From Coriobacteriales bacterium (GTDB lineage: Bacteria; Actinomycetota; Coriobacteriia; Coriobacteriales; UBA8131): 35,187 nucleotides of DNA. Positions 7,272-35,187 of this stretch are shown here, in pieces. The stretch covers positions 1 through 35,187 of the forward strand of contig JAISEO010000058.1 of assembly GCA_031264075.1 (NCBI GenBank), read 5' to 3'. The notes below the pieces were generated by a model, which was not told where the DNA came from, searched no databases, and saw nothing but the letters and a program-made list of their open reading frames with translations. Positions within the stretch are counted from its first letter, which is position 1; every line of letters begins with the position of its first letter. A program made the translations under genes and the position numbers.

Positions 7272-8354
7272 ATGAGCAAGGTCGTGAACGGCTTTCTTGA
7301 CGCTGGGTTAATGCCGGGGCCTGACTTTGTGCTGGCTCCGGAACTCGCTGGCTCAGAGGGGCTCGGTGCTGCAGATGCTCCTCTCCTCCTCATGGTGAGC
7401 GGTGGGTCGGACTCTGTGGCACTCCTGCATATGTCCGATGCACTGTATCGCGGCGCGAACGGTGCCGCTTCCCTTGACTCCCCCGCCTTACTCCGCGTGC
7501 TCCATGTCAATCATATGCTGCGCGGCGCAGAGTCAGACGGTGATGAGCGGTTTGTCGTTGCGCTCTGCGGCAAGCTGGGCATACCCTGCATCGTCAAACG
7601 CACAGACGTGGCCAGAGCGGCAGCCGAGACGGGCGAAGGCCTTGAGCAGGCGGGCCGCAGGCTCAGGTACGGGTTTGCGCAGGCGGCGCTCGACGAGTTT
7701 GCTGTCGAGCTCGGAGTGACACCGGACCGGGGAAGCATCCTCACCGCACATACCGCCGACGATAGGGCCGAGACCCTGCTTCAACGCCTGATTGTGGGCG
7801 GAGGCAGCTCTTCGCTGGCATCTATCCCCCGGCGCAATGGCCGTATCGCGCGTCCGCTGCTCGCCTGCACAAAGCAGGAGTTGCGAAGCTGGCTCACGAG
7901 CCTCGACAGGGGCGTGGATGGATGCCTCTGGCGTGAGGATGCCAGCAATCTTGACACACGGTTTTCGCGCGCCTTCGTGCGCCATGAGCTGTTGCCGCTC
8001 CTCGCCAGCCGTAACCCCGGTATCGTCGAGGGACTCAACCGTACGGCCACTGTACTTGCAGACGAGAGTGCATGGATGGATACACGGGCCCTGGAGCTGC
8101 TGCCGCTTACGCAAGAGAGTTTTACCGCTCCCCTGCCCCTCCTGCGCCGGGCGGTCTACCTGGCCTGCAACAGCGCCATTGCCGAGCTTGCGCCCGATGC
8201 CCGCATTAGCTTTGAGCATGTCGAGCATATCGTGCGCGGCGGCGAGAGGAATGGCTTTGCCTGTCAAATACCAGGCGGCATCGAGGTGCGTACGGTTGGC
8301 GGAGCCATCAGGTTCTCCAAGGCCAAGCCCCCGAGGCATGACCCGAGAAAGTAG
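7272..8354 (+). CDS. tilS: tRNA(Ile)-lysidine synthetase
   Basis: LLLMVSGGSDSVALLHM PP-loop; VLHVNHMLRGAESDGDE; LTAHTADDRAET; ORF track start at 7068 is over-extended; TATAAT -10-like box at 7233-7238. Confidence 0.93.
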   Translation: MSKVVNGFLDAGLMPGPDFVLAPELAGSEGLGAADAPLLLMVSGGSDSVALLHMSDALYRGANGAASLDSPALLRVLHVNHMLRGAESDGDERFVVALCGKLGIPCIVKRTDVARAAAETGEGLEQAGRRLRYGFAQAALDEFAVELGVTPDRGSILTAHTADDRAETLLQRLIVGGGSSSLASIPRRNGRIARPLLACTKQELRSWLTSLDRGVDGCLWREDASNLDTRFSRAFVRHELLPLLASRNPGIVEGLNRTATVLADESAWMDTRALELLPLTQESFTAPLPLLRRAVYLACNSAIAELAPDARISFEHVEHIVRGGERNGFACQIPGGIEVRTVGGAIRFSKAKPPRHDPRK

Positions 8355-8379
8355 CGGAGAAAGACTCTTCGATTTTCTT

Positions 8380-8508
8380 GGGACAGCAGGGACGGGCTGC
8401 TGTCCCACTTTGACAGGGATATTTCCGAAAGACTTGCATATCTAGCAGGTCTTTCTTCTTTTTTTCGTCAAAGCTGGTGGGACACCAGCCCCGTCCCTGC
8501 TGTCCCAC
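8380..8508. repeat. REP/MITE-like palindromic element, copy A (~129 bp)
   Basis: Terminal arms GGGACAGCAGGGACGGGCTGCTGTCCCAC and GTGGGACACCAGCCCCGTCCCTGCTGTCCCAC; inner CTTTGAC/GTCAAAG and GAAAGAC/GTCTTTC pairs. Confidence 0.9.
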
Positions 8509-8650
8509 GCGCTTCCTCGGATTTCAGCGGCAGTATCTCCTTGAAGTGCGACCAACTCAATTGTTGCGACAGTGTAGCAAGAATTCGTTTTCCGTATCTG
8601 CTGCGTTTGTAGTCAAGCACGACGGAGCTGCCGTTGTTCCTGTATTGCAT
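8507..8650 (-). pseudogene. Truncated DUF1016 (PDDEXK nuclease, YhcG-like) fragment
   Basis: Frame encodes YKRSRYGKRILATLSQQLSWSHFKEILPLKSEEAR, resembling the LSWSHF...LLPLK...R signature of DUF1016 proteins; homology ends where repeat copy A begins. Confidence 0.65.
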
Positions 8651-8652
8651 TC

Positions 8653-8690
8653 ACTCAGAGTATTGAGTAAAATACTCAGCGTCATGAGTA
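8653..8690. promoter_or_regulatory. Iterated TGAGTA/TACTCA hexamers and inverted repeat upstream of the ATPase gene
   Basis: GAGTATT (8658-8664), 6 nt, AATACTC (8671-8677); TGAGTA at 8664 and 8685, TACTCA at 8673. Confidence 0.5.
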
Positions 8691-8715
8691 AAAGTACCAG
8701 TAGAATGGATGCTCC

Positions 8716-9900
8716 ATGTTTGAAAGATCGCTTGTTTCCCAGCTGGTTGAGAGAACCGGCGAAAAACGCGCTTTTATCCAAGTGCTCGTTGGGCCACGGC
8801 AGACAGGAAAATCTACGGCACTAGGCCAGATGGTGGGCAAAGTCACTCTCCCATATCACTTGATTGCAGCCGACGACGAACTCCTCAACTCTCCTGAGTG
8901 GCTTGCTGGTGAATGGAGAAAGGCACGCGCTTTAACCGAGCAATCCCAGGCTGAAGCCTTACTCGTCGTTGACGAAGTGCAGAAGATCCCGCACTGGGCA
9001 GGCACAGTAAAGAAGATGTGGGATGAGGATACGCGCACAAAGTGTCCCCTCAAGGTCATCCTCTCCGGCTCGTCATCCCTACTGCTACATAAAGGGATGG
9101 AAGATTCCCTCGTAGGACGCTTTGAAGTACTCTACAGCCACCACTGGTGCTTTGCTGAGTGCAGGACTGCCTTTGATTATTCACTGGAGGATTTTCTCTT
9201 CTTTGGCGGCTATCCTGGCACTGCACAGCTCAAGGATGACCCGGCGCGATGGGCGCGTTACCTGAAGACCTCTATTGTGGATCCAACAATAGACCAGGAT
9301 GTCCTGCAGATGGGGCGCGTGGACAAGCCCGCCCTCCTCAAAGCGCTCTTTGGTATAGGGGCGGCCTATTCTGCGCAGGAGGTCTCCTACACCAAGATAA
9401 TGGGGCAACTATTGGATGCTGGCAACACCGTTACCATCGCGCACTATCTTGACTTGCTCGACAAGGCAGGCATACTCGTAGGGCTGCAGAAGTTCGCGAC
9501 AGAGCTGCTGAAGGTAAGGAGGAGTTCGCCAAGGTTGATGGTACATGACACCTCCCTTATGACCTACGCCACTGGGTCAAGCAGGGAGTTACTGATAAAA
9601 GACTCCGCCAAGAGGGGGCATCTGGTAGAAAGTGCCGTGGGAGCTTATCTCATTGCGCGCGCTAGAGAAGAGGACTTTGAGCTTTTCTGGTGGAGATCAA
9701 AAAAGGGAGAAGAGGTGGATTTCGTCATCAGAAAGGCATCGCTGCTCACTGCCATTGAGGTAAAGAGCGGCGCCATCAAAGGCCTCGGAGGTATCAAGGC
9801 ATTTTTAAGGCAGAACCCCGGGGCGACATCGCTGGTTATAGGTGATGAAAGCTGCTCCCTTGAAGAGTTTCTTTTGGGCAGAATACCACTGTTTGCGTAG
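8716..9900 (+). CDS. AAA+ ATPase with DUF4143-type C-terminal domain (AAA_14/DUF4143, COG1373-like)
   Basis: Walker A GPRQTGKST, Walker B ALLVVDEVQKIP, ILSGSSSLLL; C-terminal GEEVDFVIRKASLLTAIEVKSG (PD-(D/E)xK-like) typical of DUF4143. Confidence 0.9.
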   Translation: MFERSLVSQLVERTGEKRAFIQVLVGPRQTGKSTALGQMVGKVTLPYHLIAADDELLNSPEWLAGEWRKARALTEQSQAEALLVVDEVQKIPHWAGTVKKMWDEDTRTKCPLKVILSGSSSLLLHKGMEDSLVGRFEVLYSHHWCFAECRTAFDYSLEDFLFFGGYPGTAQLKDDPARWARYLKTSIVDPTIDQDVLQMGRVDKPALLKALFGIGAAYSAQEVSYTKIMGQLLDAGNTVTIAHYLDLLDKAGILVGLQKFATELLKVRRSSPRLMVHDTSLMTYATGSSRELLIKDSAKRGHLVESAVGAYLIARAREEDFELFWWRSKKGEEVDFVIRKASLLTAIEVKSGAIKGLGGIKAFLRQNPGATSLVIGDESCSLEEFLLGRIPLFA

Positions 9901-9919
9901 CGGGATGGGAGGGACAATA

Positions 9920-10049
9920 GGGACAAGAGGGACGGGGCTGCTGTCCCACTTTGACAGGGATATTTCCGAAAGACTTGTATATCTAGCAGGTCCTTCTTCT
10001 TTTTTGCGTCAAAGCTGGTGGGACACCAGCCCCGTCCCTGCTGTCCCAC
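9920..10049. repeat. REP/MITE-like palindromic element, copy B (~130 bp), same orientation as copy A
   Basis: By eye 5 substitutions and 1 indel relative to copy A; followed by an extra CTGCTGTCCCAC unit (10050-10061). Confidence 0.9.
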
Positions 10050-10088
10050 CTGCTGTCCCACAGGCACGGACGGAATTCATCCGTAGGA

Positions 10089-10183: not shown

Positions 10184-10543
10184 CTATTTAGCTGACCGTA
10201 GCTTTTTTATCGTCTTTATCAAGGATACGATGCTGGCTAGCAGCCAAAATCCCAATACTGCGCTGATGATAGACACGCCAGCAGTAAATCCGACAAGCTC
10301 AACCAACCAACCGAGCGGCAGGGCGACGATGAGCAGCACCACAGGAATGCGTACAACATTATGCTCGTCAGCAAGAACACCGATGTCGAAGGCACCGCCA
10401 AACACAAGATACGCCATCATGCCGAGCAGGGTGGCGGACACCAGGATCGAGAGGATCGGCCCCACGAGCTTACTGTAGACATGCTGTACCCTTCCTGCCT
10501 TCTTCTGCAATTCGTCGAGAGTGTTTTCCATTGTTTTCTCCAT
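10184..10543 (-). CDS. Small membrane protein, two or more hydrophobic segments, function unknown
   Basis: 119 aa; hydrophobic segments LVGPILSILVSATLLGMMAYLVFGG and VVLLIVALPLGWLVELVGFTAGVSIISAVLGFWLLASIV. Confidence 0.7.
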   Translation of the reverse strand: MEKTMENTLDELQKKAGRVQHVYSKLVGPILSILVSATLLGMMAYLVFGGAFDIGVLADEHNVVRIPVVLLIVALPLGWLVELVGFTAGVSIISAVLGFWLLASIVSLIKTIKKLRSAK

Positions 10544-10937: not shown

Positions 10938-11498
10938 ATGCCAGAAAAAGGAGCAGCGCCGCTGCCCCCAGAAATACGCGAAGTTCTTTTTGACGAGGCC
11001 GAACTCGAAGAGGTCGTCAAACGCATAGGCGGGCAGATTGCCAGAGATTACGCAGGACAAAAGCTGTTGCTTGTCACGGTGCTCAAGGGGGCATTTATCT
11101 TTATGGCCGACTTGGTGCGTGCCATCGAGGGCCATGTCGAAATAGACTTTATGGCCGTGTCGAGCTACGGCGATGGTGCCAAGAGTTCCGGCGTCGTGCG
11201 TATCATCAAGGACCTCAGTGTCTCGGTGGAGGGACGCCATATCATCATCGTCGAGGACATCCTTGACAGCGGCCTCACCCTCAAATACCTCCTCAAAAAC
11301 CTCAAGAGCCGTAACCCGCTTTCCATAGAAGTAGCCACCCTGCTCTTTAAGGAGGGCAAGCAGCAAACCGATGTGGACTGCAAGTACGTGGGGCTCATCT
11401 GCCCGGATGAGTTTGTCGTGGGATACGGTCTGGATTATGATGAAGGCTATCGCAATCTTCCCTATATCGGGGTACTTGAGCCTTCGGTATACGCATGA
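10938..11498 (+). CDS. hpt: Hypoxanthine phosphoribosyltransferase
   Basis: VLKGAFIFMADLVRAI; PRPP motif HIIIVEDILDSGLTLKYLL; PDEFVVGYGLDYDEGYRNLPYIG. Confidence 0.95.
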   Translation: MPEKGAAPLPPEIREVLFDEAELEEVVKRIGGQIARDYAGQKLLLVTVLKGAFIFMADLVRAIEGHVEIDFMAVSSYGDGAKSSGVVRIIKDLSVSVEGRHIIIVEDILDSGLTLKYLLKNLKSRNPLSIEVATLLFKEGKQQTDVDCKYVGLICPDEFVVGYGLDYDEGYRNLPYIGVLEPSVYA

Positions 11499-19613: not shown

Positions 19614-19744
19614 CGGGGCTGGGACAGGAGGGACGGGGCTGGTGTCCCACCGGCTTCCCCGTGTACCCAATTTTATTTTGTGTTTGGTGGTGGTGGCAAC
19701 CCCCCCCCGTCCCTCCTGTCCCAGCCCCGTCCCTCCTGTCCCAC
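19614..19744. repeat. REP/MITE-like palindromic element with a different core; right arm is a 20-bp tandem duplication
   Basis: TGGGACAGGAGGGACGGGGCTGGTGTCCCAC (19620-19650) and CCCCGTCCCTCCTGTCCCAG/CCCCGTCCCTCCTGTCCCAC (19705-19744). Confidence 0.85.
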
Positions 19745-20922: not shown

Positions 20923-23900
20923 CTATACCTCGGGATCAGGGCCCTGCGCGTCTGCGTCGCGCTTTCTGGAGCGTATCCGGTAGGCGAGGACTGCCAACAC
21001 CGAAGCGATGGCAAGCACAGCCACGCCAAAGGTCACCGACAACAGGTAGGGTGCCGTCTCGCTTGTTGCCGTGAGTTCGGTGGTCTCGGCGGTCTCACTG
21101 GCCTCTGCTTCGGCTCCTGGTCTCGTGTCTGTCCTGGTAACAGGCCGTGTCTCCCGTGTGGCACTGTCTGTCGTGTCGCCCTGGGTATTTTGTGAACCCT
21201 CCAACGGGGTGTAGGAGAGCGAGGCCGGAGACGACCCGCCGTCCGCAGCAGGTGCTGGAGCAGGGACAGCTTGCGCGGGCCGGTCGACCATAAAGGCGGT
21301 TGAACCCGTACCCGCCTTGAAGTCATCGACAAAGCGCAGCTCTATCAGATGGCTGCCATTTGCGAGCGTGTCCACAAAGGCAGTGTCCAGGCCTACGACG
21401 GCGCTCCCCTGGGTGAGGGTGCCGACCTCGGTGCCGTCAAGCAGGAGCTGACGGCTCGCTCTGCCGCTGGGCGTGCTACTGACGGCACCGAGGGCAAAGA
21501 TCCTGCCGTTGAGGCTCACGCTGCTAACGCTGCCGAAGTCGCCTTTGAAGCTCACCTCGACACTCTGCCCATACGCCGTGATGGGTGCTCCCACTGTGGA
21601 GCTGAGCACGGGATGACTGTGGTCAAGCGCGGCTGTCCGCGCATCGAGCTCGGCGAGCAGGGCCTCGACCTCCGCTTGTGTGAGCGGTTGGCCTCCGGCC
21701 TTGGCTGCGGCTTCAAAGGCAGCGTGTACCTTCGCCATCGTGGCATCAAGCGCATCCACTGCCTGTTCGTCGTAATTCTCCCGTGCAAGGGTAACCGAGG
21801 GAAACGCCTCCTGCTCCGCGCTGCTAAGGGCCGAGTCGAGCGCAGTCAGGCTCGTCTGGGCCGCGCCCACCCTCACCGATATCATCAGGGGCAGGGCATC
21901 GTATGAATTGGCGTAGAGGGCCGGGTCTGGCGTAAAGGTCGCGGCGGCCACAAAGAGGCCGTTCCTCGCGTCGTTGCCCAGCACGTCCGTCTCAAAGCCC
22001 ACTGCTCCCGGCACAAGAGCGGAAGCGTTGGGAGCGTCCCAGCTGAGCGTGCCGGAAAGCGTCGCCTCGCCTTTGAGAGCACTGCCACCAAAGACGTAGC
22101 CGCTTGTTTCCAGGCCGAGGCTGGCAAGACTGCCATCTCCGTAGGCAAGGATCGGCAGGCTGCCTTCCGTCACGAGCACGGGAGTTGCGGGGGCAACCAC
22201 GACGGTAAAGATGGAAGAAGCAGGAGCCTCACTGCGCGTGTCGCCGCTCAGTGGATAGGTCAATCCGAGCGGGTTGTAGTGTACGGTAAAGCTGTGGGTG
22301 CCGGTCTTGAGCGCTGCGAGATAGTTGCCGTCAAGGCTTATGCGGTCGCCAACCACGGTGTACGACATTGCCAGGGCAGGCGCGTCCGCATCCAGTCCCT
22401 CGCCGGCAGACACGCTCCCCGGAGGCGAGATGCCGTCCCACACGGCATCGTAGCCCGTGCGCTCCAAATCTGCCACGGTGTTGCCGTTCAGGGTGAGGAA
22501 GACCTCGGCGTCCGTGCTGCCAAAGCGCGTGCTGTTGACCAGTTCCGTATCGGCTGCGCTGTCCTCGTAGACGACGACGCCGTCCCTGAGGATGCCGGAG
22601 CTGTTGCCCGCGTAGTCCCTGGCCTCCACGTAGAGCGCAAAGGCGGTGCCTGCCTCCACGGAGAGAGGCTCTGCCGCGTCGTAGTCCTGCCAGAGCGAGG
22701 CGAGCGCGGTGGCGTCCAGAGCTGTGTTACCCGGAGCAGCGTCGAGGTAGAAACGCAGCGTCTCGATGTCCGAAGACACGGCGGTTCCGTCAGAGCCTGT
22801 GTCGGTGACCTCAAGTTCGATCTCCACACCATCCCTGAAAAAGAGGGCGGGGCTTGTCGAGCCGAGGAAGTCGCTTGCCGTGTTGGCGTTGTAGCCGACC
22901 TGTACCACCGGGGCCGTCTTGTCGATGCTAAAGGTGAAGGAGGCAACCGTCGATATCTCGTGCTGCGTGATGGCGTCGTTGTCCTCGTCGGCCTCCAGGT
23001 CCGTACCCGTGCGACGCACATAGAAGGGCACGACATTGGCATCGACCGGTGCTGAGCCGAGGATGAGGGTGTTCTGCCAGGTGCTCGTGTCCAGGTTCCC
23101 CGCGCTCACGGCAAAACCCGTTGCCGCCGTCACCACCACGTCGGTGTTTGTCCAGCCGTTGTTAAGGGTCGTAGCCGTGTAATGCTCCTCAGCAAGCGCG
23201 GTAAAGCCCGGGAGGATGGTAGCAACGTCGCTGAGTGTAGTCGCTGGCTGGGCGAGCGTGTAGTTGGCCCTCACGTCGCGCGAGGAGCCGGCCGCAAGGG
23301 CGTAGCTGCCCGTTCTCGCTACGCTGGACGTGCCCACCTCAGCACTCGCAAACGCAAAGTCCACATCCGAGCTGTCCAGCGCAATGCCGTCCAAATCCGG
23401 ATTGACAACACCCGCGAGTGCGGCCTCGCCCATAACGGCAAGGTCCGTCCTGCCATCGTAGTGTTTGCTTGCAAAGGCAAGGCCAGCCATAGTGACGGTG
23501 AGCGGCTTCGGCGCCACCACAAGCGTTATCCACGCCTCGGCCGAATCGTTGTAGTTGGCATCGCCAAGCCGTTTGGCGTAGATCGTCGTGCTCCCCTGGC
23601 CGATGATATTGATGCGGCCACTCAACTCCCCGATGGTGGCAACGTCCGGATCCTGGCTTCTCCATGCGTAGGTGCCGGGCTCGCTGCCCGAGCCGCCCGT
23701 TGCCGTAAGCTCAAAGGCTTGGTCGCCGTAGGTAGCGGACACGGTGGCAGGGCCGGAGATGAAGACGGCTGCCTGCGCTGCCCTGGTGATGTTATAGGAG
23801 ACCGAAGAACTCTCGGAGCTTTCATAATCGGTGTCGCCTTCGTAGGCGGCGCGGAGCCTGTGGTCACCACCGCTGAGGGTGAGCGTGAGACTTGCCTCGC

Positions 23901-26900
23901 CCGAACCGTCAACTGTCTCGGTGCCCAGAGAGAGCTCGGGCGTGAGTGCGTCGTTGTCATGGTCATCCCAAAACTCAACCTTGCCACGGGGCATAAAGCC
24001 CATCTCGCCGGCAACGGTGGCCGTGAGGGTGACGTTGTTCTCGGCGTAGGAGCTGCTTGTGAGCGGGTTACAGGCAAGTGTCACGGACGAGGTATTCCTG
24101 GCTATCGCAACCGTGAGCGTCGTGGGCCGTGGGTCATCGGTGCTTTGCGAGGCCGCATACGGCTTGCCGAGCGGGTTATACGAGACGGTGAAGCTGTGCG
24201 TGCCCGCGTCAAGCGTCTGCAGGTAGGCTGCCGTAAGCGTAATTGTGTCAGCGGGGCTCCCTGCGCTGTAGTCGGTGCTTTCAAGCGCAAACTCGGAGCC
24301 TCCGGCTGTGCGCACGATGTCGGCCACCGTGTTGCCGTGCATCGCCACAGCCGCGACAGCGTCTGTGCCTGAGGCCTTCGTGAAGGTGGTGGTGGTGGTG
24401 GTGGCACTCTGTGTATAGCGCACGAAGCCTTCCGTGCCAACGACGCGCACATTGCCTGTGTTGTCGGTGAGACGTGCGTAGACAAAGTAGCTGCCGTCTA
24501 TGGTGATGTTCGGCGCGCTGCCCGCGGTCCAGCCCGTGGCGGCCTTAGCATCTGCCTCGCTCCCAAACGGTGTCGTCCGCACGAGGTATTCCGTTGCCTG
24601 CATACCCGAGCCAGCCCCGTCCGCGCCACTCAAGGCAAGCGACACGTCGCCCGCCCAGAACTTGGCAAGGCTATCCGAGAGAGGCAGACCCGCATACGCG
24701 ATGCCACGCGCGGTGATGCTGCCGGTAGGCGGCGTGGCGTCCTTGTAGACGGTGAGGGTATGCGCCGCCTCGGCGTTCTCCGCTTCGTCCTCCGCCCAGT
24801 AGCTGATGGTGTGGCGGCCATCGGGAAGGGCTGTGAGAAGTACCTCTGCCGTAGCGCCTGCAACGATGGTATCCACCGCGGCAGCGTCTACTCGGTAGTG
24901 GATCTCCCTGACCGTACCGAGGCCCTCACCGAGCAGGTTGCCCCCTGTAGCCTTCGTCACGTCATTATCGGTGGCGGTGAGGGTCACCTTGTCCCGCATC
25001 CAGCCTTCGTTGGCGAGGTCTGCGGTCGTTACGGGTGCGACGCCGTCGAGGTAATTGGCAGTGAGGATCACAGGCGCTGGTGGCATGGTGAAGGTGGTGG
25101 TACTCGCGGTTTCGTCCTCAAGCTCGACTGTCACCGCGTCGTCCCCGTTCTGCGTCCAGTAACCGAACCTGTAGCCCTCAGCGGAATTACCGGCGGTGAG
25201 GGTGACGGGTTTTGCCGCCTCATAGCAGCCGTCCGGTGTGCCGTAGTCGCTGGTTGCCACAGGGACAGCCGAGCCGCTGTCATCGGTGGTGAGGATGAGG
25301 CGGTAGGTGGGTGTGATACCCGTGACATCGAAGGTCGCCTGCGCCACCGCAAGGTCGCTCAATACTATGGCAAGCCTGTAGGTGCCGTTAATCCGTGTCC
25401 AGTCCGCCTTCAAAGAGAAGATGAGCTGGTCATCAAGGAAGGTCGGATCGGCGTCCGTAAAATTGAAGATGACTCCTCCTCCGCTCTTGACCGTGTAGGC
25501 CCCCTCACCAAGTGCTACAAAGCCCCTGTCGTCTCCGGGGATATCCAGATACACATCCCTTATCGATACTTCCGGGCTTCCCGAGCCAAGATCTGCGCTC
25601 GTCGGAAAGTCAAGCGCAGGTGCCGTGTAGGCTCCGCCTGCATCGACGGGATGCAGCTTTTGGAAGGCGTGCATGTCCGTGAGGTAGTTCACGCCACCAC
25701 CATTGAGGATGTAGCGGGAGTCCAAAAGACCGACAGCCTTCGTGATGGTGCCGCTCGCCTCTACTGCCGCCACACCAAAGCCGGGAGTTCCCGGTAGGGA
25801 GGGTATCGATACCATAACGTCTGTCACATCGTCTGTGAACTCGTCTCCCAGACTGAAGAACACGCGCCAGGTCCAGGTGTATTTGACCGTGCCTGCAAAG
25901 TACGAGCCCTCGTCTATGGGGAGGATCATCGTTATCTTCAGTCCCTCTATCGGGTCACCGTCGCTGTCCGTTATCCTAACCGGCCCGTCGTAGGGGTAGC
26001 TTATATCCAGATTGTCGTTCTCATCTGTCGGATAGAAGTAGATGCTGTCGGGATTGCCGTAGGTTGCTATGATGGGGTAGTAGTTCTTGTCTGCGCCTTC
26101 GCCTGCAGGCTTTGCCAGCGTAAACTGGAGTGTGGAGGTGGAATAGCCCGGAAGCGCGGCAAATACCTCAGCCTCGGCTATGGCGCGGGGCACGGTGATG
26201 GGAGTGGTGGCAGCGATATAGTTACGTCCCTGCTCACTGTTTTGCTTTTGGTAGGTGTCGAGCTTGCCGTTCAAGTCCATGCGTACCTCTACAGAGGCAC
26301 TGGCCTCTGTCTTTACCGCAGATGAGGCAGGGGCGATGGGGATGACATAGACATTGTTATGGGTGCCTTCTGCGATAGCTTGAGCGTTTTTGAAGTCGTG
26401 TGCGCTCGGATCCTTTACGACCGCGGTGTTAACCACCACCTCGTTCCAGCTGAGACCTCCCACGATGGGGTATTTGAAGGTGAGCGTCATGGTGTCAGAA
26501 ACCCCGTCTTCGTCCGTATCGCTTACGGCTACACCCTCTGTGTCTGCAAACTCTATCTTCGGGTGAACCGTAAAGGTGACGTTTTGTTCTTCATCGGTGG
26601 CAACTGCACTATACATTATCTTGATCTTCGCCTGATGGATGCCAGGCTCAAGACCTGCCACAGGCTGTATCGTCCAGACGTTACCTGAGCCTTGGAGCTT
26701 AAACCAGTCTTCGGCGTCTTCTGCGCTCTCCCCTGTCCACTCCACCTTGTCCACGGTGGCGCCGGCTGCGACATGGACGGTCTGGGCTGTAAGGGGATCT
26801 GTCGTATCTCCCGTGCTCGGCAGCGTGTAGCCTTGGAGCTGCGCATCGAAGCGTACCTCGCCGAAGTCATGGACGTAGAAAGCTGTGGCAGGTGAGGAGA

Positions 26901-29900
26901 ACGAGCCCTGTGTCTCGTCATCTGGCGCTGCGACTGCCTTCACACGCAAGGTGTAGCGCCCTCCTTGAAGACCTGTGAGTATGACGGAGGTGTCTGTCTT
27001 GTTTGCGTCTTCGACATTTTGCCACTCCCCATAGCCAGCCTCACCTGTTATGCCGACGCGGTACTCATAGGCGGTATCCGCTGTAGCGTTCGTGACGGTG
27101 ACGATGCTCGGATCTGAGGCATTGCCCGGGTTATGTACCGTAAGCTCTGGTTGCGCGGGGCGACGCGGGATAAAGAGAACCGTTGCCGCGGAGTTGACGG
27201 TGTTTGTTCCGCCTTTGAGTATCACGTCGATTCCCTCTGTCGTGACACCATCTGATACCTCATCGATACCCGCACCGAGCCAAGTATCGTTTATGGGGTA
27301 GTGCCATACATCGTTCAAGTCTTTGTAAGATGGGTTGTTCGGGTCGGTAAGGTCGGTGCCGATGAACCTTTCAACGTGTCCGATTCCCTCTGTGTTGTTA
27401 CCGAAGATATACGTCTTTCCTTCTGCAAGTCCGGCTACGGTGCGGTTTACATAGTCTATCCAGGCCTCCGGGGTGTCTTCCGGTACGGGTTTATAGAAGG
27501 TGACTGCCATCCCTACAGAGTCGTCCTTTATGCGGTAGTCGTGGATGGTTCGGTCCTGTGCCTGGTCTCCTGTCCCCTCTCGCACCGTGAGCTTCCAGCT
27601 CTTTATGGTGAGGGCGTCTTCAAGCGTGGTGCCATTGGCAATGGGCAAAGCCGAGACGGGGATGAACCACGTGTCCGCTGAGGTGCGGGCACTACCTTCC
27701 GGGTTTTTGGGGTAGGGATAGGCGGTGTCTGTGCGGGTGACGCCGTCATGCAGGGCATAGGCGTCATTGTCGAGGTAAAAGCCCGCGACCTCCCTGTCAA
27801 AGGTGACGAGTATGCCGTCTGTTGCCTCTGTGCCGTCCACGCCGTTTTGCTGGACTGCGGAGGTGACTTCTACCGTAAGGGGGGCAAGTACCCTCACGGC
27901 TGTGTAGGCGGCCTTGTTTCCCGCCTCATCTTCTACCACTATGTTAAACCAGTAGGAGGTGTCGGGCTCAAGACCGGTGACGTTATAGGTGGTGATGCCC
28001 ACTGTATCGTCTTCGTTTAAGAGCGTGCCGTGTTCCATGGCCGACTCCACACCTTCCATGTCGTCTATGGCAGTGGCGTGCTGGTAGACGTAGTAGGTAA
28101 GCGCTGAATCTTCTGTAAAGGTGTCGCTTGCCGCCGTCCAGGAGAGTGTTGTGTTCCAAGATGGTGTCTCTGCACCTGTCTCGATCGGCTCGGATGCGGT
28201 TATGGTGCTCACCGCAGGCTCGACACTGCCTCCCACAACGGGCGCGGTGCCGTCCCTGCTCACCGTCAGCGTTAGCTCGACGGGAGCGGAGGCTACATAG
28301 TCATCGTCGCCGGCCTTTACCGCGGAGATAAGGGTGGTGCCGTCGGTCTTATACCCGACAAAGCTGGCCGTTGTCTCGTTGCCTGTGGTGGGTGCAACCG
28401 TCGCAACGTCTGTTTCGCTGCTTGTCCAGGTGTAGGCACCGGAGCCCGAGCCGCCGGAGGCGGTGAGGGCGAGGCTGCCGCTCTCACGCGTCCTGGTCAC
28501 AGAGCCGGGGGCTGTGGAGCTGGCCGCAACGCCGCTTCCCGTCACCTGCACCGCATTCTGCTGCGCCTTGCTCACCACGATGGTAAAGCTTGTCGTCTCG
28601 GGGGTATCGTTGCGCGCGTCAGCAGAAGAGTAGGCCACACCCAGCGGGTTGTAGCTCACCGTAAAGCTGTGCGTACCCACCTGAAGGGTCTTGAGGTAGT
28701 CCCCGTCCAGGAGTATCCGGTTACCATTTACGCTGTAGGAGGCCCCTAACACCGGCGCGCCCTCATCCTGTCCCTCGTCTGCCAGCACGCTCTCAGGCGC
28801 GCCGCCCGATGCGCTGTAGCCCGTGCGCTCCACAGCCTTTATGGTGTTGCCGTTGAGAACGACGTAGGCTGTAGCATCAGCATCTGCGAAGCGGGTGAGA
28901 GAGAGGTCCTGGGTGTTGATGGTGCTGTCGGAGTAAACGATGACGCCGTCGGTTAAGATGCCCGAGCTGTTGCCGGCGTAGTCGATGGCCTCAACGTAGA
29001 GGGCGAACCTGGCATGCTCTGCTACAGCGGGCCTGGCAAGCTCAGAGTAGGTCTGCCACCTGCCTTCAAGGGCTGCCGCGGTGAGGGCGGTGCTGCCTGG
29101 ATTGCGGTCGAGATAGTAGCGCAGCGTCTCCACGCCCGAAGAGGGGGCAACGGCATCGGTAGCCGCAAGCTCAATGTCCACGGTCTCCTTGAAGAAGAGC
29201 CCAAAGCTGATGCTGTTGAGGAAGGCGGTGAGGGCATTCTCGTTGTACCTGACCTTCACCTCAGGGGCCGTCCGCTCAATGCCGTAGTCAAGCGTAGCGA
29301 GCGTCGAGATCTCGTTTTGTGCTATGTCACCGGTGCCTGTGGCCGCGCGGCGTAGGTAGAAGGTTTTGGATGCCTCCTGCACAGCAGCGGTATCGAGGGT
29401 GAGGCTGTCCAGCCAGCTGCTGGCGTGCAGGTTTTCCGCACTCACCTTATAACCTGCGGCCGCGGTGATGACCACGTCCTCATTCGTCCAGCCCTGGTTC
29501 AGGGGGGTTGCCGTGTAGTGTACACCGGCCTCCGGCGTAAAGCCCGACGAGATGGTAGCGAGATTCGCAATGCTGTCAGAAGGCTGGGTGAGCGTGTAAT
29601 TTGTGGCCGCGCCTCCCGTGAGCGCATAGCTTCCCGTCCGTTCGACGGTGTTCTCGCCCACAGACTCGCTCGCAAACACATAGCTCACACCCGAGGCATT
29701 CAGGCCCACGTTATCCGTACCCACAACCCCAACGAGCGCAGGCGCACCCGTCATGCTCACGGTGGTGAGACCGTCGTAGTGCTTGCTCGCGAAGCTGAGC
29801 CCACTCATGTCCACAGTGAGGGACCTGGCAGTGACAGTAAGCGGAACGGCCACACCGCGCACGGTCTCGTTGTTGCCCGTGTCCGTGGGCGTAAAGGTGG

Positions 29901-32900
29901 CAAGCGGGGTGCGCGTGCCGACGTTGCCCACAATTGCCAGCGGGTTGTCCCAGCTCCACAGGCCGGGAACGGGGCTGGTCTCGGAGCCCGAGTTGGTGAA
30001 GCTGATAAGGCTCACAGAACTCAGGAGGTCTCCGTAGGTGGCGGAAAGCCCCGTAGGTGCCACCACGTCCGGCGCGGCCTTGGCAATGGTGATGGTGAGG
30101 CTTGCCGAGGCGATACCCGTCTCCCAATCGGTGTCGTCCAACCGGTGCGCCACTACGGCAATCTGGCCCGCGCCGTACACGGTAACGGTTCCGTCAGGAG
30201 ACACCGTTGCTACGGCATCTTTGCCCATCGTGCGCTCAAACACCAACGCTCCCGTGCCGCTGCCGCCCGAGGCGACAAGCGTAAAGGGCTCATCCGCCGC
30301 GGCCTTGGCTCCGGGATCCTCAATAACCACGGGAGCGGTCTGCACGCGTTTGTTCACGCGTACCACCGCGGTGTTGGAGTTTCTTGTAGCGCTCTGGGTG
30401 CCATTGACGGAAGGGTTGGTGTTGGTGACGACGCAGTAGTAGTAAAACGTGCCGACGCTTGCGCGCGGAACCTCATAGACAGCGCTCGTAGCGCCGTTCA
30501 TAAGCGTGCTGCCGACCGTGCCGGTGGGCGCGGTGGCCCGATACCACTGATACGACAGGATGCCGCCGGACGCAGCGTCAGAGGCAACAGCGGCTACTCT
30601 GAGGCGTATTCCGCCCTCAGGGTCGGCCATGGCCGTGTAGGCGTCTCCCCCGGCGGGATGTTGCGTGATATTGGGCACGGCGGCGTTGACGGTGGGGTCG
30701 ATTATCACCGTGAGCGTGGGAACCGCTGCCTGCGCGTCAAGTACATGGTTGACGGGCGCTGTCTCCAGCGTGGCGGTAAAGGCGTAGCTCCCCGCCGCGG
30801 ACGGGTTATAACTGCCTGCCAGGTTCCAGGCACTCACGGGCCAGGCCACCGTGCCGTTGGTGCAGTTTGCGGTGACCGTGGGGTATTGGGCAAGGAGCGT
30901 GGCAGCCACATCAGCCGGCGCAAAGCCCGGGGCCGGAGAGCCGGCATGGCCGCCCGGCACCACCACGGGCACGAAGCCCCTGGCCTTGTTATCGGTAACG
31001 GTAAAGGCCACTGCAAAGGATTCGCTGAGGCCGTGCTCCGCGGAGGACACCTGCACCTGGGCCGTATAGCTGCCGGAGGTGAGGCCTGCCACCGGCTGCA
31101 CGGTAAAGGGAGCCGAGACAGCATTCTGCTCCGCCACCGAGGCAATCTGCACGCTCACGCCCGAGGCACCCCCGCTCGCCAGCACAAAGGAGCCCGCGCC
31201 CGGGCCGGCGAGTGAGGCCGTCAGCTCGCCCGTGCGGTTGCTGCCGATATTGGTAACCGTCACCGGTTGTGGAGCCACACCGCCCGCGCCCACACCGTAG
31301 CCGTACTCGGCATCGGCAAAGGAAAGCGTGCCGCCCACGTTGGGCAGAATGCCGTAGGGCAGGTCGTTGACTATGACCGTGACCTGAGGCACGAGGTTGC
31401 TTGTGTTGGAGACATTCCTGTCCAGGCTGCCAAGCGTGCCTCTGAAGGTATAGATGCCGTTGACGTTGGGGTTAAAGGAAGTACCCAGGTTGACCCACGC
31501 GATAATCGGCAGCGAGATGGTGGTACCCGTGTCAAGGTTGGCCGTAACGGCCTTGCTGCCGCCAAAGGCAGGGTCTGCCAGCGTGCCATTGAGCAGGATG
31601 TCCGCAATCTCCGCCTCCTCGTCACGATCTGCGGCAAGCTCACTTGCCGTGCCCACCGTCCAGGGCGCTATCTGGGCAAAGCCCATGATGTTGGCTGTGC
31701 CTACGGTAAAGCTGAGGGTATAACTTGCGGAGAAGGGGTCGGTGTGCCCGCCCTGCCCGCTTTGGCTGCCCGCCACGGTGAGCATGGCCTCGTAGACACC
31801 CGCGTCAAGGCCTGCGACCGGACGTACAGAAATATCCGTGTTGCTGCCGGCAGGGGCGATGTTTTCGAGAGAGGCAGCGGAGAGCGCAAAGGCTGCCGCA
31901 CCGTTGCCCGAGAGCGTAACGCTCAGCGTGCCCGTAGGCTGGTTACCCGTGTTGGACACGACAACGGTGTGGGCGAGTCCCGCGGCGGCGGCAGACGTGT
32001 AGCCCCACTTCTTGGAATCAAAACTGAAGGTGGCCGCGCTGGCGGTGTCAAGGCCCAGGCCCCAGGTGGGCGCAACGGTGCCGGGCGCAATGGTAAGGTT
32101 CTGCGTAACGCTCGCAAAACGGCCCTGTGCGCCGGCCTCGGCCTTGTAACGCAGGCGGTAGTTGTTGCCCGCGGCAAGCCCGGTGATGGCTCCCGCCTCG
32201 CTGTCATAACCCGGAAGCGAGGCGATGTCGGCAACCCAGCTCCCTCCGCCGTTATTTGAGAAGTCCATGGTGGCCGCGCTCACGCCGAGGATCGCGCCGT
32301 CGGCAAAGCCCACAAAGCTCAAAGCCCGTGTGGTTGAGGCGGGAGCAGCAGGCCGCGCCTTGATGACGAGGGTGGCCGCGTCACTTTGGAGCGCGCTGTT
32401 GGTGTTGTGCTTGATAAGGGAGAGCGGTTCCGGGCCGTCGTCGGTTGCTCCGCGTCCAAACCACGCGGCGTCGATGTTGAGGACACCCGTGTTGTTCGTG
32501 TTGACCTGGTTGCCGTCCACCAGATAGACCGCGCTGTGTGCGAGACCGGTGATCTGCTCGGCAACATAGTCCACGACGGGCACCGGCGTGCGCTCGACAA
32601 CGGTGAGATGCACGGTGGCCTGGGCCGTATGGGTGAAGTCCTTGCCCTCCGGATGATAGGTGACGCTCACGACCGCCGTGTAATCGCCCACGGCAAGCCC
32701 GTCTTTGGGACGCACGGTAAAGCTGAGGTTGTCCTCCCCTGCTTCAAGGGTTGTTTCTGTGGCCGCGGTGCCAGGAGGTTTGGCAAGCTCAAAGGCGGCC
32801 GTGTTGGAGATGCTTATCTCCGCGTTGGTAAACGTAGCGGGGATGTTGCCTGAGGCGGCAATCCTGAGCGGGAGGGGGCTTACGGAGCTGCCCTGTTGAA

Positions 32901-35187
32901 GCCTGCCGCTGCTGCCGTTGCCAAAGACCGGTGCGGTGAGGTTAAGGCTCACGGCATCGGTGTCCACAATGACGGTGGAGGCCTCGCTCGCAAAGGATCC
33001 TCCGACTGTGTTGATGGCCTTATAGCGTACGTGGTAGGTTCCGGCAACTACGGCCTGGTAGTCTCCGTTTTCAACATCGGTCAGCACCGTGCAGTCCGTA
33101 TAGCTCGTCGTTCCTTCGGCGGCAAACTCCATCGCAGAAGTAACGCCGTATATCCTGTTGTCGTAGCCCGAGAGCCCGTCAGGAGCTGCGGGACGTGCCG
33201 GCACCACTACCTCGGTACGGGCACTGTCCGCGAGCGTCGTGCCATTGCCAGCGGTGACGACGTACACCGTGGTGCCGTGGAGGTCATAGCCGCCCTCGCC
33301 GGAGGTGGCAAGCGGTATCAGCTTGTCGCTCACAGTACGGGCCGTACCGTTTACGAGGTAGGTGCCCGCACCAGGCAGGGTAAGGGAGTCTGCGGCAAAA
33401 TCGACGCCTACCAACGGTGTGATGGCACGTGCTATGGTGGAGAAGGTGAAGCTCTGCGCTGCCTCCATTGCCACAGCGTCCGTACTCACGAAGCCATCCA
33501 CGGTTACCTCATAGGACGCGCCGTACTCGATGCCCGACACCGGCAGGGTCAGCGCGTTGCCCGCGGCGTTCCAACGGGAGTCATCGGTAACAATCGCGCC
33601 ACCGGTGAGCGAGGGTTCACCGGCTCCTCCGCCTGCGGTTTTCTCAATAGCAACCGTGCCGGGCAGTGTCGTGTCTATGCCCTGTGAGAAGTTGAGGATG
33701 AGGGACTGTGCGGCAGAGGGATAGACGTTGGTCTGGGCGTCTTTGGGGTTCGTGAGTGAGGCCACCGGCCTGGGCTGGGCTGCCCAGCTGTAAGACGAGG
33801 CCCCCGAGATGTTGCCGCCCGTGTCGATGGCACGAGCCTGCACCAGCGTGTTTGTGTCGGGAACGCCATCAGGAACGAAGGGCAGGAGTGTCTGAGCCGT
33901 CAGGTCAAACTCGCCTGCGCCTGGGCCTTCCTCCGTAAACACGTAGTTCTTCCAGCCGTCATTGACCGTGCCGTCTACCCACGTGCTGCCGTTGTCGAGC
34001 GAAGCGCGGTACTGATACTTGGCCACAGCCGTGTCGTCGGTGGAGTAGCCCACGGTAAAGTTCGTGTTCTTCTGGGTGACCACCGGCACAGTAGGAGCCG
34101 TGAAGTCCTCGATGATGGTTGTGTTATCGTCTTCCTTCAGGGTTTTGCCATCTTCGGTAAACTCCAGGCCTGCAGGTGCATAGTTGTTCAGTACATAGAA
34201 CTGTTTAAGGTCGTACTCCTGCGCAGCTTGGCCAGAGGCCGCTGTAAAGCCGATATAATATTCGTTGCCGATAATGGACTCGATGTCCACGTTCGTTCTC
34301 GAAAGCGTAGGCGTTTGCGGTTTGACAGGTGTAGAGCTGATATAGAGATTGAGGTACCGCTCCTTGGAGTTGTAGTCCACCCACGAGTAACAGTGTACGT
34401 TCTTTATATATCCCGAACTGTTGGCTACAAAATTGGGCGATTTATAGGCCTCATCGACAGCGCCCAGATAGCGTGTGCTGATGCCGTCTCCGTCGTTGTT
34501 TTTTGCTATTTGTGAAAACGCCCCGCCTTTCTCCCCATAGCCCGCAAACGGAACCCTCTGTCCGCCGTCGTTGTCGTAGGTATCGACCTTGAAAGCGACC
34601 GACCTTGTGAAAGCGGTACCTCCATAGCCAAGCGATCCGGAACCCCCGGTAATGCCGTTCGTGTCAGCGGCGATGATGAAGGACCAACCGTCCGCGGTTC
34701 TACTACGGCCAGCGACATCCCCGTTTTCTCCCATCCAGATATCGAACATGGCCGAGAAACCCGTTTCGGAGTATATGCGGCGGGAGAGGAAGGCCGAGCC
34801 GTATTTCCAAGGGGAGGATGCACCCGGAGTTTTGGAAATGAGCCTGATGTAACCCGACGCGTCCTGCGTCGGCTCAACGACCAGTGAGTCGTTCCCGGTT
34901 ATCCGCATAGTCTTCATGCCGTCCGCCGAGGCGTTGCCCGAGTTGAACGACGGCCCGATGAAGTAGGCGGGGAGGACAGTCTGGCTGGTGCCCGGCTCAC
35001 CGGACTGCTCGGGCGGCGGCTCCTCCCCAAAGACCTGTCCGGCAAACACCGGCGGGATGATGAGCGTGAGGGTCAGGACGCAGGCGAGCAGCGTCCGCGC
35101 GGTCTTCCGCAGCTGAGCCCTCTTCCAGGGCGCGCGCCGGGTAGCACTTACTGTGCCCTTGCGCGTGGAGCAGGAGGGACGGGGCTG
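20923..35187 (-). CDS. Giant modular cell-surface protein (adhesin-like), 5' end truncated by the window edge
   Basis: ORF of 4708 aa from 35049, frame open to 35187; lectin-like DGWSFIIAAD...GGSGSLGYGG...SVAFKVDTYDN; repeated Ig-like, YDG/MBG-like, CBM_X2-like, FN3 and FIVAR-like modules; C-terminal TM YLLSVTFGVAVLAIASVLAVLAYRIRSRKR. Confidence 0.9.
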   Translation of the reverse strand, partial: QPRPSCSTRKGTVSATRRAPWKRAQLRKTARTLLACVLTLTLIIPPVFAGQVFGEEPPPEQSGEPGTSQTVLPAYFIGPSFNSGNASADGMKTMRITGNDSLVVEPTQDASGYIRLISKTPGASSPWKYGSAFLSRRIYSETGFSAMFDIWMGENGDVAGRSRTADGWSFIIAADTNGITGGSGSLGYGGTAFTRSVAFKVDTYDNDGGQRVPFAGYGEKGGAFSQIAKNNDGDGISTRYLGAVDEAYKSPNFVANSSGYIKNVHCYSWVDYNSKERYLNLYISSTPVKPQTPTLSRTNVDIESIIGNEYYIGFTAASGQAAQEYDLKQFYVLNNYAPAGLEFTEDGKTLKEDDNTTIIEDFTAPTVPVVTQKNTNFTVGYSTDDTAVAKYQYRASLDNGSTWVDGTVNDGWKNYVFTEEGPGAGEFDLTAQTLLPFVPDGVPDTNTLVQARAIDTGGNISGASSYSWAAQPRPVASLTNPKDAQTNVYPSAAQSLILNFSQGIDTTLPGTVAIEKTAGGGAGEPSLTGGAIVTDDSRWNAAGNALTLPVSGIEYGASYEVTVDGFVSTDAVAMEAAQSFTFSTIARAITPLVGVDFAADSLTLPGAGTYLVNGTARTVSDKLIPLATSGEGGYDLHGTTVYVVTAGNGTTLADSARTEVVVPARPAAPDGLSGYDNRIYGVTSAMEFAAEGTTSYTDCTVLTDVENGDYQAVVAGTYHVRYKAINTVGGSFASEASTVIVDTDAVSLNLTAPVFGNGSSGRLQQGSSVSPLPLRIAASGNIPATFTNAEISISNTAAFELAKPPGTAATETTLEAGEDNLSFTVRPKDGLAVGDYTAVVSVTYHPEGKDFTHTAQATVHLTVVERTPVPVVDYVAEQITGLAHSAVYLVDGNQVNTNNTGVLNIDAAWFGRGATDDGPEPLSLIKHNTNSALQSDAATLVIKARPAAPASTTRALSFVGFADGAILGVSAATMDFSNNGGGSWVADIASLPGYDSEAGAITGLAAGNNYRLRYKAEAGAQGRFASVTQNLTIAPGTVAPTWGLGLDTASAATFSFDSKKWGYTSAAAAGLAHTVVVSNTGNQPTGTLSVTLSGNGAAAFALSAASLENIAPAGSNTDISVRPVAGLDAGVYEAMLTVAGSQSGQGGHTDPFSASYTLSFTVGTANIMGFAQIAPWTVGTASELAADRDEEAEIADILLNGTLADPAFGGSKAVTANLDTGTTISLPIIAWVNLGTSFNPNVNGIYTFRGTLGSLDRNVSNTSNLVPQVTVIVNDLPYGILPNVGGTLSFADAEYGYGVGAGGVAPQPVTVTNIGSNRTGELTASLAGPGAGSFVLASGGASGVSVQIASVAEQNAVSAPFTVQPVAGLTSGSYTAQVQVSSAEHGLSESFAVAFTVTDNKARGFVPVVVPGGHAGSPAPGFAPADVAATLLAQYPTVTANCTNGTVAWPVSAWNLAGSYNPSAAGSYAFTATLETAPVNHVLDAQAAVPTLTVIIDPTVNAAVPNITQHPAGGDAYTAMADPEGGIRLRVAAVASDAASGGILSYQWYRATAPTGTVGSTLMNGATSAVYEVPRASVGTFYYYCVVTNTNPSVNGTQSATRNSNTAVVRVNKRVQTAPVVIEDPGAKAAADEPFTLVASGGSGTGALVFERTMGKDAVATVSPDGTVTVYGAGQIAVVAHRLDDTDWETGIASASLTITIAKAAPDVVAPTGLSATYGDLLSSVSLISFTNSGSETSPVPGLWSWDNPLAIVGNVGTRTPLATFTPTDTGNNETVRGVAVPLTVTARSLTVDMSGLSFASKHYDGLTTVSMTGAPALVGVVGTDNVGLNASGVSYVFASESVGENTVERTGSYALTGGAATNYTLTQPSDSIANLATISSGFTPEAGVHYTATPLNQGWTNEDVVITAAAGYKVSAENLHASSWLDSLTLDTAAVQEASKTFYLRRAATGTGDIAQNEISTLATLDYGIERTAPEVKVRYNENALTAFLNSISFGLFFKETVDIELAATDAVAPSSGVETLRYYLDRNPGSTALTAAALEGRWQTYSELARPAVAEHARFALYVEAIDYAGNSSGILTDGVIVYSDSTINTQDLSLTRFADADATAYVVLNGNTIKAVERTGYSASGGAPESVLADEGQDEGAPVLGASYSVNGNRILLDGDYLKTLQVGTHSFTVSYNPLGVAYSSADARNDTPETTSFTIVVSKAQQNAVQVTGSGVAASSTAPGSVTRTRESGSLALTASGGSGSGAYTWTSSETDVATVAPTTGNETTASFVGYKTDGTTLISAVKAGDDDYVASAPVELTLTVSRDGTAPVVGGSVEPAVSTITASEPIETGAETPSWNTTLSWTAASDTFTEDSALTYYVYQHATAIDDMEGVESAMEHGTLLNEDDTVGITTYNVTGLEPDTSYWFNIVVEDEAGNKAAYTAVRVLAPLTVEVTSAVQQNGVDGTEATDGILVTFDREVAGFYLDNDAYALHDGVTRTDTAYPYPKNPEGSARTSADTWFIPVSALPIANGTTLEDALTIKSWKLTVREGTGDQAQDRTIHDYRIKDDSVGMAVTFYKPVPEDTPEAWIDYVNRTVAGLAEGKTYIFGNNTEGIGHVERFIGTDLTDPNNPSYKDLNDVWHYPINDTWLGAGIDEVSDGVTTEGIDVILKGGTNTVNSAATVLFIPRRPAQPELTVHNPGNASDPSIVTVTNATADTAYEYRVGITGEAGYGEWQNVEDANKTDTSVILTGLQGGRYTLRVKAVAAPDDETQGSFSSPATAFYVHDFGEVRFDAQLQGYTLPSTGDTTDPLTAQTVHVAAGATVDKVEWTGESAEDAEDWFKLQGSGNVWTIQPVAGLEPGIHQAKIKIMYSAVATDEEQNVTFTVHPKIEFADTEGVAVSDTDEDGVSDTMTLTFKYPIVGGLSWNEVVVNTAVVKDPSAHDFKNAQAIAEGTHNNVYVIPIAPASSAVKTEASASVEVRMDLNGKLDTYQKQNSEQGRNYIAATTPITVPRAIAEAEVFAALPGYSTSTLQFTLAKPAGEGADKNYYPIIATYGNPDSIYFYPTDENDNLDISYPYDGPVRITDSDGDPIEGLKITMILPIDEGSYFAGTVKYTWTWRVFFSLGDEFTDDVTDVMVSIPSLPGTPGFGVAAVEASGTITKAVGLLDSRYILNGGGVNYLTDMHAFQKLHPVDAGGAYTAPALDFPTSADLGSGSPEVSIRDVYLDIPGDDRGFVALGEGAYTVKSGGGVIFNFTDADPTFLDDQLIFSLKADWTRINGTYRLAIVLSDLAVAQATFDVTGITPTYRLILTTDDSGSAVPVATSDYGTPDGCYEAAKPVTLTAGNSAEGYRFGYWTQNGDDAVTVELEDETASTTTFTMPPAPVILTANYLDGVAPVTTADLANEGWMRDKVTLTATDNDVTKATGGNLLGEGLGTVREIHYRVDAAAVDTIVAGATAEVLLTALPDGRHTISYWAEDEAENAEAAHTLTVYKDATPPTGSITARGIAYAGLPLSDSLAKFWAGDVSLALSGADGAGSGMQATEYLVRTTPFGSEADAKAATGWTAGSAPNITIDGSYFVYARLTDNTGNVRVVGTEGFVRYTQSATTTTTTFTKASGTDAVAAVAMHGNTVADIVRTAGGSEFALESTDYSAGSPADTITLTAAYLQTLDAGTHSFTVSYNPLGKPYAASQSTDDPRPTTLTVAIARNTSSVTLACNPLTSSSYAENNVTLTATVAGEMGFMPRGKVEFWDDHDNDALTPELSLGTETVDGSGEASLTLTLSGGDHRLRAAYEGDTDYESSESSSVSYNITRAAQAAVFISGPATVSATYGDQAFELTATGGSGSEPGTYAWRSQDPDVATIGELSGRINIIGQGSTTIYAKRLGDANYNDSAEAWITLVVAPKPLTVTMAGLAFASKHYDGRTDLAVMGEAALAGVVNPDLDGIALDSSDVDFAFASAEVGTSSVARTGSYALAAGSSRDVRANYTLAQPATTLSDVATILPGFTALAEEHYTATTLNNGWTNTDVVVTAATGFAVSAGNLDTSTWQNTLILGSAPVDANVVPFYVRRTGTDLEADEDNDAITQHEISTVASFTFSIDKTAPVVQVGYNANTASDFLGSTSPALFFRDGVEIELEVTDTGSDGTAVSSDIETLRFYLDAAPGNTALDATALASLWQDYDAAEPLSVEAGTAFALYVEARDYAGNSSGILRDGVVVYEDSAADTELVNSTRFGSTDAEVFLTLNGNTVADLERTGYDAVWDGISPPGSVSAGEGLDADAPALAMSYTVVGDRISLDGNYLAALKTGTHSFTVHYNPLGLTYPLSGDTRSEAPASSIFTVVVAPATPVLVTEGSLPILAYGDGSLASLGLETSGYVFGGSALKGEATLSGTLSWDAPNASALVPGAVGFETDVLGNDARNGLFVAAATFTPDPALYANSYDALPLMISVRVGAAQTSLTALDSALSSAEQEAFPSVTLARENYDEQAVDALDATMAKVHAAFEAAAKAGGQPLTQAEVEALLAELDARTAALDHSHPVLSSTVGAPITAYGQSVEVSFKGDFGSVSSVSLNGRIFALGAVSSTPSGRASRQLLLDGTEVGTLTQGSAVVGLDTAFVDTLANGSHLIELRFVDDFKAGTGSTAFMVDRPAQAVPAPAPAADGGSSPASLSYTPLEGSQNTQGDTTDSATRETRPVTRTDTRPGAEAEASETAETTELTATSETAPYLLSVTFGVAVLAIASVLAVLAYRIRSRKRDADAQGPDPEV
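35165..35187. repeat. Partial copy of the GGGACGGGGCTG repeat family at the window edge
   Basis: GCAGGAGGGACGGGGCTG matches the arm of the 19614-19744 element. Confidence 0.6.

Follow-up and report, generated by a model that had tools for sequence, protein, structure and literature searches.

The window analyzed here is a 35,187-nucleotide stretch of DNA, contig C26 of an uncultured Coriobacteriales genome of 2.18 Mb (hereafter G000). The assembly of this genome has a completeness of 90% and is broken at repeats of the type described below. The genome was compared with four congeners (G001, G002, G003 and G004) and with 56 genomes from other genera; the nearest relative among the genomes compared is G003, the MAG Coriobacteriales bacterium Gx481_bin10 (JAIRZP01). 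At the junction under study, tilS, hpt and ftsH have the identities originally assigned to them, and a single ATPase gene lies between tilS and hpt, enclosed by two repeat copies, A and B (Table 1). This enclosed gene is complete, and its product matches Pfam AAA_14 (2e-20) and DUF4143 (2e-28). Between copy A and the ATPase gene, a short open stretch on the minus strand has a translation that we take to resemble DUF1016-type nucleases over their N-terminal part. Elsewhere in the window, a 4708-aa open frame (20923-35049, minus strand) takes up the final 14 kb of contig C26.

Table 1. Features of the tilS-hpt junction and a further repeat element, in window coordinates
Feature	Position	Strand	Evidence and remarks
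tilS, left flank of the junction	7272..8354	+	Pfam ATP_bind_3 1.7e-36; same neighbour in G001-G004
Repeat copy A, inverted TIR/REP-like arms GGGACAGCAGGGACGGGCTGCTGTCCCAC / GTGGGACACCAGCCCCGTCCCTGCTGTCCC with a palindromic spacer between them	8379..8508	.	Repeat search, BLAST, folding
Short open stretch upstream of the ATPase, translation SVVLDYKRSRYGKRILATLSQQLSWSHFKEILPLKSEE	about 8514..8627	-	Translation; not present in G003
Operator-like palindrome 1, ACTCA-GAGTAT-TGAGT	8653..8668	.	0 expected in the window
Operator-like palindrome 2, ACTCA-GCGTCA-TGAGT	8674..8689	.	21 bp downstream of palindrome 1
AAA_14/DUF4143 ATPase, 394 aa, PADLOC PDC-S01	8716..9900	+	Pfam, PADLOC profile
Repeat copy B, family and orientation of A	9920..10049	.	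20 bp past the ATPase stop; not in G003
Hydrophobic 119-aa ORF, no family	10184..10543	-	Missing from G003 along with copy B
hpt, right flank of the junction	10938..11498	+	Pfam Pribosyltran; 97% aa identity in G003
Further element of the A/B repeat family, no ATPase nearby	19620..19744	.	BLAST, arm search

The near-identical palindromic direct repeats that the original prediction placed around the ATPase gene are real, and their palindromes are imperfect. A and B share the same orientation and stand 1.54 kb apart. The direct pair recovered by repeat search (8394-8513 and 9935-10054, with left ends at 8380 and 9920) is 96% identical over 120 nt without a gap, and BLAST over the entire 130-bp element gives about 95% identity, with a single indel, GGG against GGGG, located in the left arm. 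In DNA folding, each copy forms one single-strand hairpin nearly end to end, with energies of -45.8 and -36.7 kcal/mol for A and B (z of -10.9 and -6.9). Copy A lies within 25 bp of the tilS stop codon and copy B within 25 bp of the ATPase stop codon. A segmental duplication in which B was derived from A was considered and rejected, as homology ends at the element boundaries.

The A/B element gave 72 BLAST matches in G000, and a tolerant search for its arms in the regions fetched from this genome found 60 arms in 40 clusters, many of which are symmetrical inverted pairs of 28-33-nt arms with a total length of 92-128 bp. Copies A and B form a long subfamily together with an element at C14:10698-10824. 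In 15 of 18 elements the variable triplet is the same in both arms, compared with 4.6 expected by shuffling, and the unit of this family is therefore the whole element and not the single arm. Many G000 contigs start or stop inside the repeat family (C5, C28, C40, C49, C60 and C99), so the copy numbers for this genome are lower bounds. The family is present in all four congeners searched, and none was found in the 56 genomes from other genera. Its clusters adjoin unrelated genes, including tsf, dxr, mraY, icd, ligA and those for AMP-ligases, and frequently a stop codon is only tens of bp away from an element; several elements lie between convergent genes. On contig C97 of G000 (L183, 1783-3145), two repeat pairs lie within one long BadF/DUF2229 CoA-activase frame, apparently inserted in frame.

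Genes for Y1_Tnp transposases (PF01797) occur in G000 (one), G001 (two), G002 (one) and G004 (three), and cognate inverted ends were found at all four of the same-genus transposase genes that were inspected most closely. These ends are GACAAAAGGGGCCGGGGC for the transposase at G000:C17, GTGACAAGGGGACGGGGCGTTTGTCAACTTTGA for those at G004:C4 and G002:C48, and GGGACAGGGGGACGGGGCTGCTGT / CAGGGGGACGGGGCTGGTGTCCCATTTT for that at G004:C88. The G004:C88 ends match the window arm at about 23 of 25 and 22 of 24 positions, which none of 5000 shuffles equalled, and a subterminal ACTTTGA is common to the window copies and the ends at G004:C4 and G002:C48. The transposase that matches the window repeats was found in this congener, G004, and not in the 90% complete assembly of G000. 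The transposase of G000 itself was rejected as the source of A and B, since its ends belong to a separate and different TIR family of about 14 copies. At the C-termini of the transposases, sub-threshold Pfam HTH matches were obtained for two of three proteins, and the sequence looks HTH-like. In G002:C31 (L232, L235), several separate ORFs of ~109 aa resemble only the C-terminal part of a TIRYT transposase, and in G004:C67 (L179) a DUF4143 ATPase gene adjoins a TIRYT transposase gene.

These features resemble those of TIRtrons and their TIR repeats (Di Nocera et al. 2013, PMC3733652; PMC6006769), in which HuH-Y1 genes with an HTH-like C-terminal end are flanked by long GGGGAC-rich inverted repeats that are also dispersed, often as dimers. 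The transposases of the genus fit the description of TIRYT transposases, long proteins with an HTH-like C-terminus (below threshold here) whose inverted ends are also found dispersed as dimers (PMC3733652); these correspond to subclass 2.1 in the TnpA-REP scheme of Quentin et al. 2018, in which REP-like sequences were reported not to be found (PMC6006769). Unlike in TIRtrons, the GGGGWSAS consensus is only partly matched here, as the TIRs share GGGGAC and deviate from it at the following two positions, and the dimers are symmetrical and self-complementary with arms that covary. A search of these two papers found no mention of Coriobacteriales. The elements also resemble REPINs and BIMEs (Bertels and Rainey 2011, PMC3116915) in having two inverted REPs and a spacer that form one hairpin, in being mostly extragenic with dozens of copies and over-represented doublets, and in their tie to a Y1 transposase. 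They differ from REPINs in that this tie involves the TIRYT/HTH branch, not the canonical REP-flanked groups, and apparently in the GTAG/GTGG tetranucleotide expected at the hairpin foot; the arms are flanked by GTGGGACA, where GT[AG]G can be read, but within the stem. Judged by their sequence, the A/B elements are dimers of a REPIN-like kind, built from the terminal inverted repeats that belong to the genus's TIRYT transposases, and they constitute a new family within a known class of miniature elements. By analogy with these systems, the cognate transposase, a HuH-Y1 (IS200-like) TIRYT enzyme, would be what moves the dimers, probably copying or moving them as single-stranded hairpins.

It is also possible, though we consider it short of probable, that A and B now serve chiefly to end transcripts or to stabilise mRNA downstream of tilS and of the ATPase gene, with their mobility in the past. 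The position of A, B and many other copies near stop codons and of several between convergent genes is consistent with such a role, and REPs are known downstream of coding regions (PMC3733652). A transcript-end role leaves the spread of the family and its transposase link unexplained, and it could hold alongside the reading favored overall below.

The ATPase itself is a full-length match to the PADLOC profile for PDC-S01 (PDLC04791, 3e-159), and it resembles these COG1373/DUF4143 ATPases in both its AAA_14 and DUF4143 parts. PDC-S01 is described as a P-loop ATPase whose end is PD-(D/E)XK-like and as ranking fourth in frequency among the defence candidates of prokaryotes; validation is pending for most PDCs, and 'defence' is a prediction for PDC-S01 itself (PMC12988326). 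The conserved residues of the protein, namely GPRQTGK, DE(V/I)QK and the invariant E333, D335, E348 and K350, fit a P-loop ATPase in which the C-terminus is PD-(D/E)XK-like. As a PDC-S01 protein, it is a phage-defence candidate. The stretch of residues about 204-262 reads like a putative winged helix, with three helices in a low-confidence AlphaFold model whose pLDDT is mostly below 45 for residues 186-285. Because this region is poorly modelled, a fold search with the ATPase gave only generic AAA+ matches, Cdc6/Orc1 among these; a sequence search of the PDB gave no match.

Immediately upstream of the ATPase start codon, at 8653-8689, are two tandem palindromes of the form ACTCA-N6-TGAGT, spaced 21 bp apart, and no such palindromes appeared in shuffles. 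The motif ACTCA-N6-TGAGTA occurs at only three places in the 2.18 Mb, two of which are the ATPase upstream sites; the third, at C35:14360, was rejected as a regulon member, since it overlies an ORF's end and chance would yield about one such site. In G003 the second palindrome reads ACTCA-GTGCTC-TGAGT, with the inner six bases changed and the half-sites kept. The half-sites, often repeated as TTGAGTAAAATTACTCA, also precede relatives that are 41-60% identical and come from other genera of Coriobacteriales, from Firestonebacteria and from Bacteroidota, a variant (TTGAGATAATTATCTCAA) stands upstream of a Spirochaete relative, and half-sites of the ACTCA/TGAGT type are found again before plasmid copies of the ATPase from Collinsella and Bacteroides. 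More distant DUF4143 genes have other private direct repeats (CTTGCAATCTCGGA three to four times, ATGTAAATCCGATGA three times, TGTTGAATTAGACC two to three times) or private inverted repeats (TTTTGCTAGGATATCCTAGCAAAA or GACGGAGTTTCAG-N6-CTGAAACTCCGTC). Two paralogues within G000 have palindromes that differ by eye (CTCGATATATCGAG at C61 and CTAAACTTATAGTTTAG at C93) and fall below significance in the repeat test described next. Around the tagged ATPases, no conserved neighbour gene was found other than through window/G003 synteny and antisense shadow ORFs.

For this test, the 120 bp ahead of each start codon, which was inferred except for plasmids, were scored for their best direct repeat (14-mer, lags 19-25) and their best inverted repeat (11-bp arms), each judged against shuffles of the same sequence with significance set at P<=0.02. 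Controls were 119 other intergenic gene starts from the same loci, with DUF4143 genes excluded by profile, and were treated identically; the shuffles were mononucleotide, an effect which the controls absorb. A significant gene-specific upstream repeat was detected for 35 of 62 ATPases and 9 of 119 controls (Fisher 1e-12), in the same data from which the idea of upstream repeats arose and with members within one clade being related. Distant members alone gave 16 of 36 (1.6e-6), and one member per 40%-identity cluster gave 7 of 16 against the same 9 of 119 (P=5e-4). Near-exact repeats occurred essentially only at lags of 22 and 23 (15/62 versus 2/119), and one of the two controls with such a lag is the opposite side of an ATPase repeat. 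About 40% of the ATPase upstream regions carry no significant repeat in the same test. In addition, 18 plasmid-borne members from several phyla were fetched as a hold-out after the test was fixed, of which eight were significant (P=2e-4) and 13 had their best lag at 22-23 (1.6e-4). No mention of private upstream repeats for PDC-S01 was found in the open-access papers searched, and the iteron-like repeats distinguish these genes from PDC-S01 as described there. To judge from those papers, private promoter repeats seem to be a so far undescribed trait of this large and uncharacterised ATPase family.

Plasmid Rep proteins, archaeal Orc1/Cdc6 and antitoxins are self-binding regulators with iterons. 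The ATPases would resemble them in that phased repeats precede a gene whose product would bind them; the likeness would be one of arrangement, and the fold search matched Cdc6/Orc1 only among generic AAA+ proteins. The tags are private to each gene, are constant in close relatives across phyla and have no conserved partner gene, from which we infer that the ATPase probably recognises its own upstream repeats. A possible read-out of protein-DNA co-evolution comes from residue 226, at the start of the second helix of the putative winged helix, which is arginine in 6 of the 30 closest proteins. These are exactly the six with an xxxCA tag (GAACA, GAGCA, GGGCA, TAGCA), in which CA replaces TA, and arginine is found in none of the 24 proteins with another base at the fourth half-site position. 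The six proteins form two groups on a tree built without the region of residue 226 and therefore represent one or two events, so the correlation is suggestive and not proof.

We lean slightly toward the reading in which DUF4143/PDC-S01 ATPases are self-addressed, with the winged helix reading the gene's own phased repeat and the two diverging together in a manner that would prevent cross-talk between paralogues. Each gene of the family would have its own DNA address upstream, usually with a period of 22-23 bp, which the ATPase would bind through the winged-helix stretch between its ATPase and nuclease-like parts. Autorepression would be the simplest consequence of such self-binding; the bound ATPase might repress itself, or assemble at the site, until an invader or damage releases it. 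The marking of self versus invader by the tag is a possibility only.

Alternatively, the upstream repeats could be bound by a host regulator or form a leader RNA element, with the ATPase itself not recognising them. Their position directly ahead of the start codon would suit a repressor or a leader hairpin. This alternative is nonetheless unlikely, because the tags differ from gene to gene within one genome yet persist across phyla in close relatives, a pattern that a host factor would not account for, and the strict period of 22-23 bp fits binding along DNA better than it fits an RNA element. The near uniqueness of the motif in the genome and the lack of a second conserved gene also weigh against it.

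The comparison with congeners separates the ATPase gene from the repeats around it. In G001, G002 and G004, tilS and hpt are there with no ATPase between them, which bears out the suggestion that the gene is accessory DNA in a conserved junction; in G002 this junction holds a different, TIR-type palindrome. In G003 the order tilS - ATPase - hpt is found at the same site, with the ATPase gene split across contigs C14 and C77, which overlap inside the gene, and with copies A and B absent. Among the relatives, the ATPase at this site is thus seen only without A and B, with no more than REP-like stubs at both places. Upstream of the gene in G003, GGGACAGAAGGGACGG is fused directly to AGCTACCG with only a REP-like stub, and the junction looks like a deletion over a shared GACGG, reaching from A's left arm as far as position 8621; downstream, only GGGACAG is left and there is no 119-aa ORF. 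From the upstream stub and fusion, we infer that A is probably older than the split between G000 and G003 and was lost in G003, with the ATPase retained. The ATPase genes of the two genomes share 93-95% nucleotide identity and the hpt genes 93%, a similar divergence, and the dN/dS of the ATPase is about 0.05-0.13, indicating purifying selection.

For 40 elements spread over 2.18 Mb, chance predicts about one pair less than 1.6 kb apart. The genus has about six close repeat pairs, and three of them enclose genes for ATPases or of a toxin-antitoxin-like kind; the repeats may therefore be indirectly associated with accessory genes, though not strongly. One such pair in G000, on C14, brackets a PemK toxin gene, for which a search of the congeners gave no informative orthologous junction. 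Another, near ligA in G003 (C78, L204, 111-1215), has an HI1420-type antidote gene between two direct repeat copies, where G000 has a single copy downstream of ligA (C50, L035, 1800-1919). Exchange of accessory genes is possible at the ligA and C14 sites.

At the tilS-hpt junction, the bracketing of the ATPase by A and B is probably a coincidence, because G003 has the ATPase without A and B and three congeners have no ATPase there. That A, the ATPase gene and B together form a composite cassette, able to come and go by homologous recombination or to be moved by a repeat-handling transposase, is very improbable: a defence-like gene between direct repeats of about 95% identity and the bracketed genes at the ligA and C14 sites speak for it, but G003 keeps the cargo with both repeats lost or never there (which rejects a composite transposon or excisable cassette), about 40 clusters adjoin genes such as tsf, dxr, mraY, icd and ligA, about one such pair would be expected from chance, and the sequences flanking A bear no relation to those flanking B. 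Recombination between A and B as direct repeats is possible in principle; the proposal that they carry or release the ATPase is not supported given these clusters and the G003 gene, nor are the repeats tied to a cargo. Of the mobile or defence-like role first envisaged, the defence-like part agrees with the PDC-S01 match, and mobility by way of the repeats finds no support in G003.

Taken together, we favor, at a probability of roughly three in four, the reading that two independent things are overlaid at this locus, namely the dispersed, non-coding, TIRYT-linked repeats A and B and a horizontally spread, self-addressed ATPase gene. A and B would have settled around the ATPase by chance, behind the stop codons of tilS and the ATPase gene, and would have had no part in moving it. 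The ATPase gene would be a horizontally spread single-gene accessory unit that reached the tilS-hpt junction before the sister species split. The dispersed repeat family explains away the apparent cassette, and the repeats upstream of the ATPase matter more. A private DNA address for each gene provides a concrete handle on what PDC-S01 proteins bind and makes their mechanism testable. If the self-addressed reading is true, binding would set the expression of the ATPase and may mark the DNA that its nuclease-like part spares or acts on.
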